Assembly: GCA_963728475.1 (NCBI GenBank)
Contig: CAVSKL010000002.1
Span: 620,001 to 684,000, forward strand
Origin: CAVSKL01 sp963728475 [NCBI: Candidatus Eiseniibacteriota bacterium]
Lineage (GTDB): Bacteria; Eisenbacteria; RBG-16-71-46; JABDJR01
Direction: 5' to 3'
DNA length: 64,000 bases
Shown here: positions 7,395-63,358 of the stretch, piece after piece
Numbering within the stretch: the stretch's first letter is position 1
Layout of the letters: every line of letters begins with the position of its first letter
The notes under the pieces: generated by a model
Databases searched by the model: none
Told to the model about the DNA's origin: nothing
The model's input: the letters and a program-made list of their open reading frames with translations, nothing else
Translations under genes and position numbers: made by a program

Positions 7395-8672
7395 TCAGCC
7401 GCGGACGGCGGCGGGCCGGGCGAGCGCGCTCTGAAGGGTGGCGCCGTCGGGCAGCTCCGTCCCCGGTTCCACCCGGCTCCGGCCTCCGACGCAGGCGTTC
7501 CGGCCCACCGTGGCTCCGTCCCCCACGGTGACGTCCTTTCCCAGCAGCGCGATCCCGTGGCGGAGCAGCTCCGGATTCTCGCGGTTGGGTTCCCCGTCCC
7601 CCGCCTCCCCGACCCGGGCGTCGCGTCCCACGCTGGCACGCTTGTCCAGGATCGCATGCTCGACCCGGGCCCCGGAGTGGACGTGGACGTCGTTCATGAG
7701 GATGGACCGGCGCACCACCGCCCCCTCCTCCACCACCACCCCCGGGAACAGGATGCTCTCCTCCACCGTGCCCCGCACCACTGCTCCGTTGGCGACCAGG
7801 CTCCGTTCCGCCCGGCCGCTCCCGCTCACCCGGGCCGGGGGGGCGTCCGCGCTGGGGGTGCGGATGGGCCACGCCCGCTCGGAGAGCTGAAGGCTGTGGT
7901 CGGGGTCGAGGAGCTTCATGTTGGCGTCGAAGAACGCCTCCACCGTGCCGATGTCCTGCCAGTACCCGTCGTAGGTGTGGGCCCCCACGTCCGCAACCTG
8001 GATGAGCCGGGGAAAGATGTCCTTGCCGAAGTCGTGGCGGGGAGCTTCGCCGGCCGTTTCCTTGAGGAGCCGCATCAACGTGTCCCGGCGGAACACGTAG
8101 ATCCCCATCGAGGCCAGGTTACCCTGGGCCTCGCGCGGCTTTTCCTGGAAGCCCACGATGTGCCCCTGGTCGCTGGTCTGAACGATACCGAACTGGTCGG
8201 TGATCTCCGGCGCCACCGGGGTCACCGCCACCGTGGCCGGAAACCGGCGCTCGCGGTGGAAGCGGATCATCGGCCGGTAGTCCATGGCGTAGACGTGGTC
8301 GCCGGAAAGGATGAGCACGTCCTCCACCGAGCGCTGGGACACCTGGAGGAGGTTCCGGTACACCGCGTCCGCGGTCCCCTGGTACCAGTCCCCGGACTCC
8401 GCCTCCAGGTACGGCTGGAGGATCTGGAGACCGCCCACGCTCCGGTCCAGGTCCCAGGTCCGGCCGGTGCCCACGTGCTCGATCAGGGACATGGGACGGT
8501 ACTGGGTGAGGAGTCCGACGTCGAAGAGGCCGGAGTTGGCGCAATTGGAGAGAACGAAGTCGATGATGCGGAACTTGCCCCCGAAGGGCACCGCGGGCTT
8601 GGCCCGCTGCTCGGTGAGGATGGAGAGGCGGCTTCCCACCCCGCCGGCCAGGATCATGGTGTAGACGCTCAT
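7395..8672 (-). CDS. glgC: Glucose-1-phosphate adenylyltransferase, catalytic-type subunit
   Basis: The 425-residue product makes ADP-glucose from ATP and glucose 1-phosphate for glycogen synthesis. The nucleotidyltransferase domain has [20 protein letters not shown] and [17 protein letters not shown], with the lysine of RAKPA present. It also has [12 protein letters not shown] (metal-binding Asp), YQGTADAV and [12 protein letters not shown]. The C-terminal third is a left-handed beta-helix of hexapeptide repeats ([20 protein letters not shown]). Its ATG overlaps the TGA of the upstream paralogue, so both are made together in a fixed ratio. Confidence 0.9.
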
Positions 8673-9901
8673 GCCGGCACCTCGCCCAGCCGAAGCCGGA
8701 ACGCCTCCTCGGAGATCGCCTCACCGGGCGGGGTCACCGTTCCCGGCGCGATCTCCGCCCCTTCCGGCAACTGGGCCCACTTTCCCACCACCGCGATGCC
8801 GTCCAGGTCCGGGTCCCCGTCGGCGGAACCGGCGTCGCGGCGGCCGAGCCGCGCCCCCGCGCCGATTACCACGTTCTTGTCCACCACCGCCCGCTCCACG
8901 GTGGCTCCCGGCCCCACCACGGTGCCGTTGAGCAGCACCGCGTCGCGGACCACCGCGCCGCGTCCCACCACCACCCCCGGCGAAAGCACCGAGCGTTCCA
9001 CCGTGCCCGCGATCACCGCGCCGTTGGCGACCAGGCTGTCCACCACCCGGGACCCGTCCCGGAAGAGCACCGGGGACATCTCCTCGCTCCGGGTGAAGAT
9101 GCGCCATCCGGGATCGTGCAGGTTGGGCGCGGGATCGTCGCCCAGGAGCCGCTGATGGGCGCGGAAGTAGTGCGGCACCGTCCCCACGTCGTCCCAGTAC
9201 CCGCCGAAGGGATAGGCGCGGACCAGGTTGGGGTCGCGGATGTGCGGCATGAGCAGGTCCAGGATCAGGTTGGGTCCGGGTATCTCGCGAAGCAGGCGGC
9301 GCAGGAACGAGGCATCGAAGAGGTAGACCCCCATGAAGGCGTGGCGGGCGCCGGTGCTCTCGGGCTTTTCGTTGAATTCGAGGATGCGGCCGTCGTCCCC
9401 CACCTCCACCATCCCGAAGCGCGAGGCCTCGGCGTAGGGGACCGACCCCACCGCGAGGGTGGCGCGGGCCCCCGACTCCAAGTGGTGCTGGAGCATCCAG
9501 GAGTAGTCCATCTTGTACACGAGATCGGTGGAGAGCACGAACACCCGGTCGGCGCCGCTGTTCTCGAGGACGTCCAGGTTCTGGCGGAGGGCGTCCGCGG
9601 TTCCCTCGTACCAGCGGGCGCCTTCCTGGCGGGCGTAGGGCTGGAGGATGCTCACGCCGCCGTCCCGGCGGTTGAGATCCCAGGGCTCGCCGCGGCCGAG
9701 ATGGGCGGCCAGGGAGAGCGGCGCGTACTGGGCCAGCACCGCCACGTGGTAGATCTCGGAGTTGATGCAGTTGGACAGGGTGAAGTCGATGAGCCGGAAC
9801 TTGCCGGCGAAAGGGACCGCCGCCACCGAGCGCGGCTGGGCGAGGACCGAGAGCCCCCGGGTTCGTCCCCCCGCCAACGCGAACGCCATGACCCGCTTCA
9901 T
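8669..9901 (-). CDS. GlgC paralogue with degenerate active site, GlgD-like
   Basis: The 410-residue product has the full GlgC architecture (nucleotidyltransferase domain, then beta-helix with [20 protein letters not shown]). The signature loop is changed to ALAGGRTRGLSVLAQPRSVA: the GxGxRL spacing is altered and the invariant RAKPA has become RSVAA. The VLSTDLVYKMDY and GYWDDVGTVPHY motifs remain. Loss of the substrate-binding lysine suggests a regulatory subunit analogous to GlgD of Bacillus, pairing with the catalytic GlgC encoded immediately downstream (ATGA overlap). The start ATG 9901 has only a weak ribosome site (AGGGG about 11 bases away). Confidence 0.75.
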   Translation of the reverse strand: MKRVMAFALAGGRTRGLSVLAQPRSVAAVPFAGKFRLIDFTLSNCINSEIYHVAVLAQYAPLSLAAHLGRGEPWDLNRRDGGVSILQPYARQEGARWYEGTADALRQNLDVLENSGADRVFVLSTDLVYKMDYSWMLQHHLESGARATLAVGSVPYAEASRFGMVEVGDDGRILEFNEKPESTGARHAFMGVYLFDASFLRRLLREIPGPNLILDLLMPHIRDPNLVRAYPFGGYWDDVGTVPHYFRAHQRLLGDDPAPNLHDPGWRIFTRSEEMSPVLFRDGSRVVDSLVANGAVIAGTVERSVLSPGVVVGRGAVVRDAVLLNGTVVGPGATVERAVVDKNVVIGAGARLGRRDAGSADGDPDLDGIAVVGKWAQLPEGAEIAPGTVTPPGEAISEEAFRLRLGEVPA

Positions 9902-56841: not shown

Positions 56842-59649
56842 CTACCAGGCCTGGGCCTCGGCCAGCACCGCCTTGGCCACCGGGTGGTCGGGGTCGTACT
56901 TGAGCGCCAGCCGGGCGAAGTAGGCCGCCTCCTCGGCGTCGCCCCGCTTCAGGTAGTAGCGCGCCATCCCCACCATCGACTCGACGCTCTTCAGGTCGAT
57001 CGTCCGCGCCCGCAGGAAGAGTTCGTAGGCGTCACGGTCCCGCCCCAGGAGCAGGTAGGCCTGACCGAGGAGCCCGTCCACGTCGGGGTCCAGCGGGAGC
57101 GAGCCCGCGGCGAAGGCCAGGGCCTGGGCGGCGGCGTCCCCGTTTCCGGCGTTGAGCTCCAGCCGCGCCAGCTCCACCGCCGCCGAGCCCGCCCCGTCGT
57201 CTTGCGAGAGCAGGGTGTGGTAGGCGAAGCGGGCGGAGGCGGTGTCCCCTTCCGCGGTGAAGATGTGCGCCCGCGCGACCAGGGCCGGCGAGGCGAGAGG
57301 GTAGACGGCCAGCGCCCGTCCATAGGCATCGAGCGCCCCCGCGGTGTCCGCGGCGGCCAGCCGCATCTCCCCCAGGGCGAGCCAGGCGGGGACGTCGCGG
57401 CTTCCCGCGGTCGCCGCCCGTTCCAGGTCCCTGCGGGCGTCCTCGGTCCGCCCATCCGCGCGCTCGGCCAGCCCGATGACCGCCTGGGCCCGGCCGTCCC
57501 CGGGCCGGAGCTTCAGCACCGCGCCGGCCGCCTCGATCGCCGGCCCGGCCTGCCCCTGCTGATATCGGGCCACCGCCAGCTTCTCCCACAGGTCCGCGTC
57601 CCCCGGCGCGTCCTGGGCCGCCGCCTCCAGGCGGCCGGTCCGCTCCCGGTCGGCGCGGGGCCACACCGGGAGCGCGGCCGCGACGGTGCGCACCCGGTCC
57701 AGGCAGCGCCCGGAAAACTCCGGGTAGCTCTCCCCGAGCACGTCGTGGACCGCTTCCGGGAGCTTCTTCCCGTCGCCGAATTCGCGGAGGAGCTTGGGCA
57801 CGGAGTCCCAGCCGTGGCGGTCGACGATGTCGTCGACGATGAGCGCCGCCTCGTGATAGGCCAGGAGCCGCTGATCGAACGACTTGGGCCGGGTGAAGGC
57901 GAGGGTGAGCGAGTCCACCGGGACCAGCTCCCCGTCCTCGTAGGCCGCGCGCAGGTTCTCGTCCCAGGTAAGGCCGCGCGGATACCCCTCGAGGTGCACG
58001 CTCAATCCCTCGGTGAACCAGAACGGGACCTTCATGCGGGTCATCCCGAGCGCCAGCACGTGGCCGTACTCGTGGCGCAGCACCTCCCGCCAGTTCGTCC
58101 CCCCGGTCAGCGTTCGCGGCGAATCCATGGCGATCACGTCCCCGAAACAGACCGCGGGAATCCCTTCCACCCAGGCGAATCCGGTGACCCGCGCGCTGAA
58201 CCAGTCGTGGGTGGGAAAGACCTCGACCACGGTGGGCACCTTGGGCTTCCACCCATGGAGCTTGGTGAGATCGTCGTAGATCCCGGCCAGCGCCGTCTCC
58301 ATCCGGGGAACGAGGAGGCTGTCGGTGTCGGCCTGGTAGCGGATGACGAAGTGGTCGGTGCGGGCGACGGCGAAGGTGTCCATCTTGTCCAGGAGCTGGA
58401 GCTGGTTGAACGCGCGGATGTTGTACTTGTCCCCGGCGAAACCTTTCTCCAGGTAGCCCCGGGCGTCCTTTTCGTTCCCCTCCCGCATGAGCAGGAGCCC
58501 GATGCCGTTGAGCGCCACCGCGTTTCCGGGGTCCCGGGCCAGCATCCGCCGGTACTGGGCGATCGCCTCGTCGTTGCGGCGCCCGTCCTCCAGGATCCCG
58601 GCCAGCCGGGAGAAGACCTCGAGATAGCCCGGATCCTGCTCGAGCACCTGCTTCACCGAACTCCGGTAGAGGGTGGAGTCCCCGGACACGTATCCGGCCG
58701 CGGCCAGCCAGGAGCGGGCGGCCCGGTCGGTGGGGTCGGCGGCCAGGACCGGCTCCAGGAACGCCCGCGCGCCGGCGGCGTCGTCCGCGACCAGGGCGAC
58801 CTGGGCCCGGACCGCCAGCGCCGACGCGTCGCCGGGGCGGAAGGAGAGCACCTCGCGCGCGGCTTCGTCGGCCCGGGTGAACTGGTGGTTGTCGGCGGCG
58901 AACCTCGCGGCCAGGAGCAGCACCTCCGGATCGTGGGGGGCGATCTGTCCCGCCGCCTGCACCTCGTCCCCGGCCAGCTTCGACTGGTACCGGGATTGGA
59001 AGAGATCGGCCAACGCGATCCGGGCGGGAAGGAAGCCGGTGCTGTCCTTGATCGCGGTCTGGAGCATGCGCGAGGCGTCCTGGTAGGCGCCGCGGTAGGC
59101 GGCGGCCCGGCCGAGCGCGGTGAGGTCGCCGGGATCGTACGAACGGGACGGATCGTACGCGTCCAGGACCCCCTGCATGACCTCCGAGGCCTCGTCGCGT
59201 TTCCCGGTCACGGTGAGGAGTTGCGCCCGCTCCACCGCCGCCGGCCACGACGCCCCGGCGACCGCGGCGAGGAGCTGCGCCCCATCCCCCGGCCGCCCCC
59301 GGGCGGCCAGGCCCCGGGCGCGAAGGATCGCCGCCCGCGCCCATCCCGGGTCGGCGGAGAGCGCCTTCTGCGCCTCCGCGTCGAGCTCGTCGTAGGCCCC
59401 GGTGTCGTAGAGGACCTCGAGATAGCCTTCCACCGCCCGCCGATGCCCGGGGCCGGTCGCCGCGGGGTCGTGGGCGAGTTCCTTCCACAGGGCCGCCGCC
59501 TGCGGCCAGTGCCCGGCGTCCTGGGCCTTCACCGCCGCCTCGAGGGTGGCGGCATCCGCGCGCGGAGCGCCCACCGCCGCCGCGCCGGCCAGGATCGCGG
59601 CGAGGACGCAACCCTCGAGAAACCTGCACCGGATGCGGGATCGGTTCAC
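56842..59649 (-). CDS. Exported TPR protein with peptidase MA-like (gluzincin) domain
   Basis: The 935-residue product starts GTG 59649, overlapping the upstream oxidase stop (GTGA), with a signal peptide (LEGCVLAAILAGAAAVGAPR). TPR repeats flank a metallopeptidase centre with LRHEYGHVLALGMTRMKVPF and WFTEGLSVHLEG. HEYGH and the downstream Glu are the gluzincin zinc ligands and catalytic base. Repeats such as AYRGAYQDASRMLQTAIKDS and YYLKRGDAEEAAYFARLALK fill the rest. It is probably periplasmic. Substrate unknown. Confidence 0.82.
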   Translation of the reverse strand: MNRSRIRCRFLEGCVLAAILAGAAAVGAPRADAATLEAAVKAQDAGHWPQAAALWKELAHDPAATGPGHRRAVEGYLEVLYDTGAYDELDAEAQKALSADPGWARAAILRARGLAARGRPGDGAQLLAAVAGASWPAAVERAQLLTVTGKRDEASEVMQGVLDAYDPSRSYDPGDLTALGRAAAYRGAYQDASRMLQTAIKDSTGFLPARIALADLFQSRYQSKLAGDEVQAAGQIAPHDPEVLLLAARFAADNHQFTRADEAAREVLSFRPGDASALAVRAQVALVADDAAGARAFLEPVLAADPTDRAARSWLAAAGYVSGDSTLYRSSVKQVLEQDPGYLEVFSRLAGILEDGRRNDEAIAQYRRMLARDPGNAVALNGIGLLLMREGNEKDARGYLEKGFAGDKYNIRAFNQLQLLDKMDTFAVARTDHFVIRYQADTDSLLVPRMETALAGIYDDLTKLHGWKPKVPTVVEVFPTHDWFSARVTGFAWVEGIPAVCFGDVIAMDSPRTLTGGTNWREVLRHEYGHVLALGMTRMKVPFWFTEGLSVHLEGYPRGLTWDENLRAAYEDGELVPVDSLTLAFTRPKSFDQRLLAYHEAALIVDDIVDRHGWDSVPKLLREFGDGKKLPEAVHDVLGESYPEFSGRCLDRVRTVAAALPVWPRADRERTGRLEAAAQDAPGDADLWEKLAVARYQQGQAGPAIEAAGAVLKLRPGDGRAQAVIGLAERADGRTEDARRDLERAATAGSRDVPAWLALGEMRLAAADTAGALDAYGRALAVYPLASPALVARAHIFTAEGDTASARFAYHTLLSQDDGAGSAAVELARLELNAGNGDAAAQALAFAAGSLPLDPDVDGLLGQAYLLLGRDRDAYELFLRARTIDLKSVESMVGMARYYLKRGDAEEAAYFARLALKYDPDHPVAKAVLAEAQAW

Positions 59650-61133
59650 GCGGCCTCCGTGTCGAACAGGGTGCCCCGGCCGAGGATCCACGCCGGGTCC
59701 CAACGTCGTTTGATCGCGCGCATCGCGCGGATGCGCGCCTGGGGATACTGGACCGCGAGGAGGTCGCGCTTGAGCTTCCCCAGCCCGTGCTCCCCCGCCA
59801 CCCCGCCGCCGGCCGCCACCGCCTCGCGGCACATGGCCGCGGCCAGCTTCCGCGCCCGGGCGAGTTCGCCCGCGTCCCGGGGCAGGAAGTTCACATGAGG
59901 GTGCCCGTTTCCGATGTGGCCGAACATCACCGTGCGAAGCCCCGCCCCGGCGATCCGCTGCCGCCATCCCTCCAGGAAGTCGGGGAGGCCCGGATACGGC
60001 ACCCACCAGTCGGTACCGAGCTTCCCCCCGCCCGCTTCCCGGAACCGGGCGACCTCCTCGTTCACGGTGGCGGGAACCCGGTGGCGGAAGGACCGGAGGC
60101 GGGCGCGGCCGGGAACGTCGTCCACCACCAGCGCCGCGTCCAGGAGCTCCGCCCCCCCGGTCCCGGCCAGGGCCGACTCGATCAGGGAGAGCCACGCCTC
60201 CAGGTAGCGCTCCCGCTCGTGTTCGTCCCGGTATTCCTGCTTGAATTCGATGGCGGCGCCGGCGGCGGCGGGGCGGACGATCCCCTCCGGGTTCTCCCCC
60301 ACCAGGTCGAAGGCGGCGGCGTCCACCAGCTCCAGGGCCCGGGGGCGCACCGAATCCGCTCTCCGCGCCGCCACCGTGAACCGCAACGCCGCCAACAGCG
60401 ACGGGAAGAAGGCCAGCCCGGCGAAGTGCGGCGGGGGGAGCGGCACCACGTCCACCGTGACCCCGGTGATCGCGGCCAGGGTTCCCTCGCTCCCGATCAC
60501 CAGGTCGATCTCCTCCCGGGCGTCGAAATAGCCCGCAGTCGCCTTCTCCTCCGCGGGTGGATCCCCGGGCGCGCGCCGGAGCCGGCGCGGGGCGCCGTCC
60601 GCGCCGACCACGGCGAGGGCGCGCACCCAGCGACGGGTGGGGCCGTAAAGCAGGGTGTCCTCGCCGGTCGCGTTGGTAGCCACGGTGGCCCCCAGCCGCG
60701 CCTCGTCCCGGCTGGTGGGATCGGGCGGGTAGGCCCAGCCCTCCGCGGCCAGCGCCCGCTGGAAGTCGCCCAGGAACATGCCGGGACCGGCGGTGGCGGT
60801 CATCCCCCCGGTCTCCGGATCCCGCCCGAGGTCGAGCAGGCCGTCGAGCCGCTCGGTGGCGAGGAGGATCCCCTCCTCGGCCACGCTGCTCCCGGTGAGG
60901 CTGGTCTGGCCGCCGGCGAAGGTGACGGGGATGCGATGGGCGTGGGCGTGGGCGAGAAGGGCGGACACCTCGGCCGCGGAGTCGGGACGGGCCACCCCGT
61001 CGGGATCGCCCTCCATCACCGCGTCGCCGCGGTAGCCCTCGTAGCCCGGATCGCCGGGCGCGAGCAGCGTCCCCGCCGCGAACAGCGGCCGCAACGCATC
61101 GCGGTTCCACCCCTGCCCTTTGGACTCGCTCAT
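59646..61133 (-). CDS. FAD-binding oxidase of the GlcD/D-lactate dehydrogenase family
   Basis: The 495-residue product has a PCMH/FAD_binding_4 domain (VTFAGGQTSLTGSSVAEEGI, RLGATVATNATGEDTLLYG, LVIGSEGTLAAITGV) and a C-terminal FAD-oxidase domain (MFGHIGNGHPHVNFLPRD, VAGEHGLGKLKRDLLA). It oxidises a 2-hydroxy acid such as D-lactate or glycolate. No GlcE or GlcF partner is nearby, so a stand-alone enzyme is likely. The start ATG 61133 is only 10 bases after a TACAAT box. Confidence 0.88.
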   Translation of the reverse strand: MSESKGQGWNRDALRPLFAAGTLLAPGDPGYEGYRGDAVMEGDPDGVARPDSAAEVSALLAHAHAHRIPVTFAGGQTSLTGSSVAEEGILLATERLDGLLDLGRDPETGGMTATAGPGMFLGDFQRALAAEGWAYPPDPTSRDEARLGATVATNATGEDTLLYGPTRRWVRALAVVGADGAPRRLRRAPGDPPAEEKATAGYFDAREEIDLVIGSEGTLAAITGVTVDVVPLPPPHFAGLAFFPSLLAALRFTVAARRADSVRPRALELVDAAAFDLVGENPEGIVRPAAAGAAIEFKQEYRDEHERERYLEAWLSLIESALAGTGGAELLDAALVVDDVPGRARLRSFRHRVPATVNEEVARFREAGGGKLGTDWWVPYPGLPDFLEGWRQRIAGAGLRTVMFGHIGNGHPHVNFLPRDAGELARARKLAAAMCREAVAAGGGVAGEHGLGKLKRDLLAVQYPQARIRAMRAIKRRWDPAWILGRGTLFDTEAA

Positions 61134-61143
61134 GGTGCGGGCG

Positions 61144-61152
61144 ATTGTAGCA
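61144..61152 (-). promoter_or_regulatory. Extended -10 element for the FAD oxidase
   Basis: TGCTACAAT on the minus strand, 10 bases before the ATG, so the leader would be about 3 bases. Confidence 0.45.
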
Positions 61153-61188
61153 GTAGCCGGAGGGACGGGAACCGGGGCCGGCCGGAGG

Positions 61189-62133
61189 TCATTGCTCCCG
61201 GATGCCGTACTTCTTCTCGAAGGCCAGCACCATGTCGTCCAGCCGCGAGTCGCCGCGCTGCTCCCGCCGGAGATCGATCAGCCGGTAGTCCACCGCGGTC
61301 AGGCTGTCGGGGCCCTGGTAGCGAAGCTCGAGCTGCGCCACCGCGCGCGAGCTGGGGCCGGCCCGGAGCACGTAGGTCCCGTCGATCATCGAGACCCCGT
61401 GGGCGGCGGGAGGCCGGTGCCCCTGCACCAGCACGGTGGCGCCAGGCACCGCATCCAGCCACTCCTCGACCTCGTCGGTGTCCCCGTGGCCCAGCACCAC
61501 CACGAAATCGGCCTTGCCCCGGAGGCCGGCCATCACCGGGGTCAGCGCCTGGATGGGATCCGTCACCAGCAGGCTGTCGGGACTCCGGTCGATGGCCCCG
61601 GGAAGGGTGTAGTAGAGAAGCGGATCCACGTACCCGGTCACCGCGATCCGGCGTCCGTCCCGGTCCAGCCAGCGAACCGGGGGGATCCGCGACCGGAGGC
61701 CGGGGGGAACCCGCACGTTGGCGCACACCAGCGGCAGCCGGCCGGCGGCGCGGGCCAGGAACTCCGGGCCCAGCATCAGCTCGTCCTCGCCGAGGCCCAC
61801 CGCGTCGTAGTCCATGAGGTTCATGGCCTCGATCATCAGCGCCGCCCGCTCCTCGACCAGGCTGTCGCCGGGAGCGGGGACGAAGTCGCCGCCGTCCAGG
61901 ATCACCGAGGCGCGGTCGAGGGCCCGCGCCCGCTGATACACCCCGCTTCTGAGGGCCAGTCCCCCGACCGGCATGTGGTGTCAGGTGCAGGGTCGGAGCT
62001 CGCCCCGGCTGTCGGTCTGGGCGAGAAACGCGATGCTCCAGGAGGCGTCGTCGCCGGCGGCGGAGCGGCCGGCGAACGGAGCGGCGGCGGCGCAAGCGAG
62101 CAAGAGGAGGGCCAGGGGGCGGAGTCGGTTCAT
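61189..62133 (-). CDS. Secreted metallophosphatase-like protein, candidate selenoprotein (in-frame TGA at codon 51)
   Basis: ATG 62133 opens a signal peptide (NRLRPLALLLLACAAAAPFA). The frame then runs to FLAQTDSRGELRPCT, meets TGA (61983-61981), and continues without another stop as HHMPVGGLALRSGVYQRARA to residue 314. The downstream part is a 5'-nucleotidase/UshA-like metallophosphatase fold (ASVILDGGDF, DFVVVLGHGDTDEVEEWL, VLVQGHRPP). As I recall this family it carries PCGC followed by GGLARR; here PCT-TGA-HHMPVGGLALR puts the TGA exactly on the second Cys. A SECIS-like hairpin follows directly. A nonsense mutation or base error are the alternatives. No sel genes lie in the window. Confidence 0.72.
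61939..61983 (-). promoter_or_regulatory. Candidate bacterial SECIS element at the in-frame TGA
   Basis: Downstream of the TGA, GCCGGT (61972-61967) pairs with ACTGGC (61960-61955), one G-T pair, around loop CGGGGG. An outer CACC/GGTG stem (61980-61977 with 61942-61939) encloses it. The loop starts 15 bases after the TGA and has G as its second base, near what bacterial SECIS elements show. Confidence 0.5.
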
Positions 62134-62185
62134 GGAGCGCTGTCCTCGGTTTCGGAGCGGGGCCGGCGGGCCGGCCGCGAGCCTC

Positions 62186-63358
62186 TCAACGATACACGAT
62201 CTTCTCGATCTCTTCCCGGACGTCGTCCGGCTCCCGGCCGCGGGCCAGCGCCACCTCGCGGCTCAGGATGCGGAGCGCGGTGCTCAGGATCTTGCGCTCC
62301 TCGTAGGAAAGGGACTTCTTGAGCGAGAGCCGGGCCAGGTCGCGGACCGCTTCCGCCAGCGAGGTGGGATCCCCCAGGCTCAGGCGTTTCCGGTAGTCCA
62401 CCACCCGCTTGGCCGAGCGTCGCTTGGCGTCGAAGGTCGCCCGCCCCTTGAGCACCTCGAACACGTCGTCGATCTGCTTGCGCCCGATGGGGCGGCGGAG
62501 CCCCGACCGCTCCACCTGGTCCACCGGGATGGTGAGCCGCATCTCCTGGTAGGAAAAGCTGATCTCCAGGCAGGGGACGGTCCGGGTGCTGAGGTGGCGC
62601 TCGGTGATCCGGTCGATCTTTCCCAGCCCGTACTTGGGATGCACCACGAACTGCCCCTCCGCGTAGGGGAGCATCTCGCGCGCCTCCTCGACGGTGATCC
62701 GGGGGGCGGGAGGAGGAGGCTCGACCTTGGCCCGCTTGGCCGGCTTGGCAGCCTGGGAAGCCTGGGTGGACTTGAGGGCGTTCGCCGCCGCCGGCGCCGG
62801 GACGGCGGGCCCGCCCTTGCCCACCGCCTGTTTGCGGGAGCGGGCGGTGGCCGGCGCGCGCCTGGCCGCGCTCCCGGCCTCCGCGGCCTGCTTTGAGGCC
62901 TGCTTCGAGGCCTGCTTCGAGGCCTGTCTCGAACGCTGCTTCGCGGTCGGATTCGGGGTCTGCTTCGAACTCGTCTTCGCGGCCTTCTTCGAGGTTTGCT
63001 TCGAGCTCTTCTTCTTCACCGGCTTGGACTTGGAGGCGGTCCTTCGCGCGGTCCGCGAGCCCGTCGCCTTCTTCGTCGAGGCTTTTTTCTTGGCGGACTT
63101 CGAATTGGAAGACTTGCTGGAGGTCGACCCGGAAGACCCGGTGGACTTCTTGCGTACGGCGGGGCCTCGGGCCGCGGTGGCGGACCGCGGGGTCTTGCGC
63201 TTGGGGGCGGACGCCGTCCGGGCGCCGCCGGCACTCGCGGAACGCTTCTTTCCGGCCTTGGAACTTGTTGTTTTTTTTATGGTTAACGCTCTGGCCAAGT
63301 CCCTCTCCGATCCCGGGAACCGACCGGGGAGCCGTCCCCTCGCCCGCTTCTGAAGCAC
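62186..63358 (-). CDS. CarD-family RNA polymerase-binding regulator with long basic tail
   Basis: The 390-residue product has about 215 N-terminal residues rich in Lys, Ser, Ala and Thr, like a histone H1 tail (KKKASTKKATGSRTARRTAS, then SKQA repeats). A CarD domain follows: VVHPKYGLGKIDRITERHLS, then EISFSYQEMRLTIPVDQVER, and a helical C-terminal DNA-contact domain (AEAVRDLARLSLKKSLSYEE). CarD binds the RNA polymerase beta subunit and stabilises open promoters. The promoter is at 63380-63408. GTG 63358 fits that promoter; a shorter start is possible. Confidence 0.85.
   Translation of the reverse strand: MLQKRARGRLPGRFPGSERDLARALTIKKTTSSKAGKKRSASAGGARTASAPKRKTPRSATAARGPAVRKKSTGSSGSTSSKSSNSKSAKKKASTKKATGSRTARRTASKSKPVKKKSSKQTSKKAAKTSSKQTPNPTAKQRSRQASKQASKQASKQAAEAGSAARRAPATARSRKQAVGKGGPAVPAPAAANALKSTQASQAAKPAKRAKVEPPPPAPRITVEEAREMLPYAEGQFVVHPKYGLGKIDRITERHLSTRTVPCLEISFSYQEMRLTIPVDQVERSGLRRPIGRKQIDDVFEVLKGRATFDAKRRSAKRVVDYRKRLSLGDPTSLAEAVRDLARLSLKKSLSYEERKILSTALRILSREVALARGREPDDVREEIEKIVYR
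62885..62932. repeat. Four tandem 12-base repeats inside the CarD gene
   Basis: Units of GGCCTGCTTCGA (with small changes in the first and last copies) encode the SKQA repeats of the basic tail. Such repeats can change copy number by slippage without shifting the frame. Confidence 0.8.

Follow-up and report, generated by a model that had tools for sequence, protein, structure and literature searches.

The window, a 64-kb stretch of DNA, holds on its minus strand a reading frame of 314 codons plus a stop (61189..62133) that is open from end to end apart from one internal TGA at codon 51 (61981..61983), the proposed selenocysteine (Sec) of a C49-x-U51 motif (PCTU). The frame begins with an ATG at 62133-62131, ends with a TGA at 61191-61189, and is preceded by a candidate ribosome-binding site, GAGGA, 9 nt upstream of the ATG (62143..62147). 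A signal peptide of approximately 22 residues (62068..62133) was read off the translation by eye, and LLAC at residues 11-14 is a possible lipobox. The sequence around the motif is ...TDSRGELRPCT-U-HHMPVGGLALR..., with 263 codons after the TGA and no further internal stop among them, so that the predicted product has 314 residues if the TGA is decoded. The first-pass annotation of this DNA had described one frame running from a signal peptide through PCT and TGA into HHMPVGGLALR, and this is confirmed, on the minus strand and with no other internal stop; it was also right that 263 residues follow the TGA, but it counted these as additional to HHMPVGGLALR, which the total already includes.

Gene finders stop at a TGA, and the call they would offer instead is a 261-codon frame from the ORF list (61189..61974, minus strand), with its ATG three codons past the TGA, which would lose both the export signal and the C-x-U motif. 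On the same strand, a CarD-domain gene occupies 62186-63358 upstream, and downstream the stretch 59646-61133 is an FAD-linked oxidase gene; the gaps between the three genes are about 50 nt, and the whole set (59646-63358) is possibly one transcript.

A six-frame scan of the window for stops with open coding-like sequence on both sides returned three TGA, two TAG and no TAA, and by our reading each of the other four flanked stops marks a boundary between two successive genes. The occurrence of this TGA in an open coding frame exceeds chance. A stricter first scan of the window for interrupted genes flagged no site, the codon-51 TGA included, because the 50 codons ahead of the TGA have a codon-use score of only 0.21. 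Codon use there is weak, the lower quartile for segments of the training genes being 0.34, and past the TGA it is normal, at 0.52 against a gene median of 0.48. A variant genetic code, with TGA read as tryptophan or glycine, would account for the open frame, but TGA terminates 30 of the 45 ORFs in the mechanical gene list for the window (some of those frames being spurious) and the scan found no other clear TGA-interrupted gene in the window, so the probability of a variant code is negligible.

Among NCBIfam models, the best match to the window protein is NF041198 (UshA_like_PCGU; E-value 2.5e-23), at 82.4 bits against a curated cut-off of 275 and over profile positions 23-269 of 519 only. The protein departs from this equivalog in two further respects, having no CxxCH heme motif and carrying PCTU in place of PCGU. 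What it shares with NF041198, and with the COG0737 UshA-like CxU proteins described in 2008, is the place of the putative selenocysteine in C-x-U, followed by five residues and GGL, together with a 5'-nucleotidase-type domain and predicted export. NF049981 (UshA-like family 2; 1.3e-7, 31.4 bits against a cut-off of 140) has a related domain of similar length (model 262), but its motif is given as CxxU in a table of a 2026 review (PMC13188914), while the window protein has CxU. The thiosulfohydrolase SoxB (TIGR04486; 8.5e-9, 34.2 bits against a cut-off of 550) has a related fold, and the window protein is much shorter.

A sequence search of the PDB returned 5'-nucleotidases, the best being 3ivd_A (6.2e-7). 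The same entry was the top Foldseek match to a predicted structure (E-value 3.9e-14, TM-score 0.62 by query), although the AlphaFold model behind this match is intermediate in quality (mean pLDDT 59.6, pTM 0.64) and was built from five sequences, three canonical relatives among them, which may have steered the fold match. The motif region, residues 42-58, has pLDDT below 50. For the broad UshA-like CxU kind, then, a UshA/5'-nucleotidase-type domain is present by the NF041198 match and by the sequence and fold matches to 3ivd_A, and a C-x-U with TGA at the aligned place is present as PCTU, residues 49-51.

The first-pass annotation knew of no described selenoprotein of this family, a statement contradicted by the 2008 Global Ocean Sampling paper, which lists "COG0737, UshA-like", motif CxU, as a selenoprotein family (PMC2398784), by the appearance of UshA-like selenoproteins in a 2022 review (PMC9312934) and in the 2026 review (PMC13188914), and by the existence of the two NCBIfam models. 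Our literature search, which was not exhaustive, found no work on the function of UshA-like CxU selenoproteins, and a search combining selenocysteine with Eisenbacteria, the group that GC content and gene style tentatively suggest as the source, returned 0 papers. The window gene is a distant, divergent, heme-less member of an already known kind of UshA-like selenoprotein; the new points are this single remote member and possibly how wide the heme-less branch is.

Four loci came from a scan of genome contigs: L001, with an in-frame TGA, and L002, L003 and L004, which are canonical and lack the motif. In L001, from a metagenome-assembled genome titled Deltaproteobacteria, PCGU-KSSQL-GGL aligns without a gap to PCTU-HHMPV-GGL of the window protein. 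The place of codon 51 was then read residue by residue in 81 loci (L001, L010-L049 and L053-L092) and holds TGA in 67, Cys in 10 and neither in 4; 40 of these loci were hand-picked, mainly TGA rows, and the ratio is not a frequency. The 10 Cys loci carry Cys at or beside the place of codon 51, and one of them, L092, shows T at the Sec column of the multiple alignment. The idea, put forward in the first-pass annotation, that the TGA replaces a conserved Cys of relatives finds some support in these 10 loci, but many more of the relatives (67 of 81) carry TGA themselves. The motif is missing from L048, L049 and L091, which are canonical. L022, from the same phylum as L001, has an open frame reading PSGR for PCGU, in which Arg (CGA) stands where Sec would be and Ser replaces Cys, and is possibly a natural loss of the C-x-U pair.

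The Cys forms raise the possibility that the window gene is one of them, with an original PCTC in which a single-base sequencing or assembly error has turned TGC or TGT into TGA. Besides the Cys at or beside this place in 10 of 81 loci, two Cys forms are the nearest rows to the window row by path in a quick tree (support 19), and the hairpin past the TGA, described below, is unremarkable. Such an error, however, would need to strike the one codon in 314 at which relatives use TGA, in a frame that no other stop breaks, and we regard it as very improbable. The placement of the window row in that tree was itself rejected as unusable: its end branch has a length of 2.16 and no supported set holds it.

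Two phyla were searched more broadly. In the phylum of G001, the genome that holds L001, a search of 297 genomes with NF041198 found matches at E of 0.001 or below in 250, of which 58 exceed the cut-off; among the matches listed, those with the highest scores mostly contain one in-frame TGA. A search of 82 genomes from the phylum of G002 (titled KSB1) with the window protein found a match in 71. The window itself is probably not from the KSB1 phylum, as a GlgC that it encodes reaches no more than 48% identity over long matches in 81 genomes of that phylum, with 57% and 50% on two partial matches. Among the 123 KSB1-phylum matches listed, one in-frame TGA is present in 52 of the 87 that begin no later than residue 49, and in none of the 36 that begin at residue 52 or beyond. 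These late-starting matches cannot show codon 51, but they do show that in-frame TGAs are absent elsewhere in the domain. In 31 loci of the KSB1 phylum the TGA could be placed directly at codon 51. A search of IMG/VR found no relatives. In L079 (G174) and in several of the rows listed from the G001 phylum that have two TGAs, a second in-frame stop occurs soon past the Sec codon; the cause may be a pseudogene, an error or a second selenocysteine.

The multiple alignment contains 79 relatives, 65 of them TGA rows; two of the 67 TGA loci were left out, L016 being the same gene as L001 and L079 having a short frame. The motif in the 65 TGA rows is PCGU in 54, PCSU in 3, PCAU and GCGU in 2 each, and KCGU, DSGU, ASGU and PCVU in 1 each, with PCTU in none of them. 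The partner cysteine, C49, is kept in 63 of the 65. In L082 and L083 the TGA is kept and Ser takes the place of the partner Cys (DSGU and ASGU), and therefore a disulfide-like C-x-U pair is not universal. By length, the TGA rows divide into 41 short ones, of no more than 380 residues, and 24 long ones, and the CxxCH heme motif is found in all 24 of the long rows, in none of the 41 short ones and not in the window protein. Nine short relatives searched with NF041198 scored 121.0-207.7 bits, below the cut-off, as against 450.3 for one long, heme-bearing relative. Short, heme-less UshA-like selenoproteins of this sort would thus go unnamed by NF041198.

The relatives conserve hairpins past the TGA. 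By a rule like that used for bacterial SECIS elements, 48 of the 67 TGA sites in relatives are followed by a hairpin with a stem of 6 bp or more, compared with 12.4% of 10526 other codons in the same loci. The hairpins occur in two registers, with the loop starting mostly 18-19 nt past the TGA in the G001 phylum and mostly 28 nt past it in the KSB1 phylum. In an alignment of all 34 G001-phylum sites (A3), 82.8% of the pair cells are formed, and in an alignment of 26 of the 31 KSB1-phylum TGA sites (A4) the figure is 93.4%; the five left out of A4 are L059, L060, L062 and L065, which are three bases shorter, and L068, which has another hairpin. When the partners are slid by 1-3 columns, the values fall to 23.0-52.0% (A3) and 24.7-44.5% (A4). 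The covariation score and the number of cells paired were each reached by 0 of 500 shuffles in both alignments, while pairs changed on both sides are in no excess over shuffles, 458 of 500 (A3) and 154 of 500 (A4) reaching the observed count. Two phyla with two SECIS distances after the same Sec codon would make SECIS turnover testable within one gene family.

The window has a candidate SECIS of its own, the 7-bp hairpin GCCGGUC-GGGG-GACUGGC (61955..61972, minus strand), whose loop starts 15 nt past the TGA. A published bacterial SECIS model has a loop of 3-9 nt, an upper stem of 4-16 bp, a G in the first two loop places, a minimum free energy of -7.5 or lower, and 16-37 nt between the TGA and the loop (PMC13188914). 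The window hairpin agrees with this model in its loop (GGGG), stem (7 bp), loop G and energy (-12.4 kcal/mol in a 40-nt fold), and its spacing of 15 nt is one nucleotide short. Shuffling gave fold z-scores of -1.61 to +0.21. The DNA of the window has a GC content of 72.5%, and a comparable hairpin occurs in 29.8, 22.3 and 15.8% of its 6345 in-frame coding 47-mers when the minimum stem is set at 5, 6 and 7 bp, respectively. With 15.8% of coding 47-mers reaching the 7-bp level, the hairpin at this site neither proves nor excludes selenocysteine, and on the background rate and the shuffles we rejected it as independent proof.

Nor could the hairpin of the relatives be placed at the window site. 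The window sequence forms only 3 of 6 and 4 of 7 pairs of the relatives' two conserved hairpins, and on this ground that candidate was rejected; it forms all 7 of its own, of which at most 5 are formed in any relative. An Rfam search of the gene region returned no SECIS family, and one chance match below the gathering score. The hairpin of SECIS size that the first-pass annotation placed directly after the TGA is therefore present, at 61972-61955, but it lies within background and differs from the conserved hairpin of the relatives.

Evidence from the selenocysteine machinery comes from the genomes of relatives. G001 has a tRNA-Sec at 72.1 bits, over the cut-off. Among the 82 KSB1-phylum genomes, selB is over the cut-off in 57 and tRNA-Sec was found under strict filters in 49. 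The TGA gene is present in 51 of the 82, and selB or tRNA-Sec is found in 47 of these 51 versus 17 of the 31 genomes without the gene (Fisher p 1.7e-4); for selB alone the numbers are 41 of 51 versus 16 of 31 (p 0.012). Four genomes, G332, G341, G350 and G370, have the TGA gene with neither selB over the cut-off nor tRNA-Sec, and many genomes of this phylum are probably incomplete.

These observations also bear on the possibility that the window gene once encoded a selenoprotein but now belongs to a lineage without selenocysteine decoding, leaving either a pseudogene or the 261-codon ORF (ATG at 61974) as the only product. The tRNAs of the 64-kb window are tRNA-Ala and tRNA-Leu only, with no tRNA-Sec, the SECIS pairs of the relatives are broken in the window sequence, and 4 of 51 KSB1-phylum genomes with the TGA gene have no selB over the cut-off or tRNA-Sec, although this may reflect incompleteness. 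Against such a loss, the 263 codons past the TGA are free of stops and normal in codon use, neither the signal peptide nor the ribosome-binding site is damaged, and a product of the 261-codon ORF would have no export signal, no C49 and no first strand of the fold. We consider the loss of decoding even a little less probable than a sequencing error.

We favor an UshA-like protein with selenocysteine encoded by codon 51, at a probability of about 0.88. Comparison with relatives supports the family, the fold relationship, the place of the selenocysteine and the loss of metal-site residues. The gene would encode an exported UshA-like CxU selenoprotein, in a short form without the heme-binding domain. 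In the source organism the ribosome would decode the codon-51 TGA as selenocysteine, presumably with the hairpin at 61972-61955 as the SECIS, giving a C49-T-U51 motif predicted to sit directly past the first strand of the 5'-nucleotidase-type fold. A selenenyl-sulfide at C49/U51 might then be made and reduced, which would amount to selenol/thiol redox chemistry and not to phosphate hydrolysis; we propose a redox role because a large part of the phosphatase metal site has been lost.

The loss can be seen by comparison with L048, L049 and L091, which served as the metal-site reference (L091 itself differs at D80). The window protein keeps D41, D80, H216 and H239, but has R43, E116, D117 and P241 where the canonical rows have H43, N116, H117 and H241. 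Thus it does not have the full canonical 5'-nucleotidase metal site (D, H, D, N, H, H, H, H), with 4 of the 8 residues replaced, and, unlike 5'-nucleotidases and UshA (for example PDB 3ivd, 1ush, CD73), it is without a C-terminal substrate-binding domain. Variation at these positions extends to the 65 selenocysteine rows of the relatives, of which 25 have E and 7 have D at 116, and 22 have K and 18 have R at 117.

The protein could still be an ordinary metallophosphatase of the 5'-nucleotidase/UshA type in which the selenocysteine is incidental, as its sequence and fold matches are to 5'-nucleotidases and D41, D80, H216 and H239 are all in place. The four replacements speak against this, as does a Pfam search of the window protein, which at E up to 10 gave no match, the metallophosphatase domain included. 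We consider an ordinary phosphatase unlikely, if less so than either a sequencing error or a loss of decoding. The name "metallophosphatase" in the first-pass annotation captured the fold relationship correctly, by the NCBIfam and 3ivd_A matches, but with half of the metal site replaced the label "phosphatase" seems doubtful for the window protein.

Returning to the selenoprotein reading, the variation of the metal site while C49 is kept leads us to infer that phosphatase chemistry has been left behind and that C49/U51 may carry out redox chemistry outside the cytoplasm. We would give the redox role, taken alone, an even chance. The 2008 discussion counts UshA-like among the major selenoprotein families that lack a conserved redox motif based on Cys (PMC2398784), which speaks somewhat against it. 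In the long relatives the fused CxxCH region is suggestive of electron transfer. That four phosphatase residues are lost and the C-x-U is kept offers a testable idea of what the selenium is for. In a wider and more speculative form, to which we assign clearly less than an even chance, there may be a large heme-less UshA-like branch in which a decayed metallophosphatase turned into a periplasmic redox enzyme of the C-x-U type and the SECIS shifted along the coding sequence between lineages, the 15 nt of the window being a third position beside 18-19 and 28 nt.

Elsewhere in the window, two glgC-like genes are adjacent on the minus strand with a 4-base overlap (7395-9901), and the same pairing occurs in many KSB1-phylum genomes.
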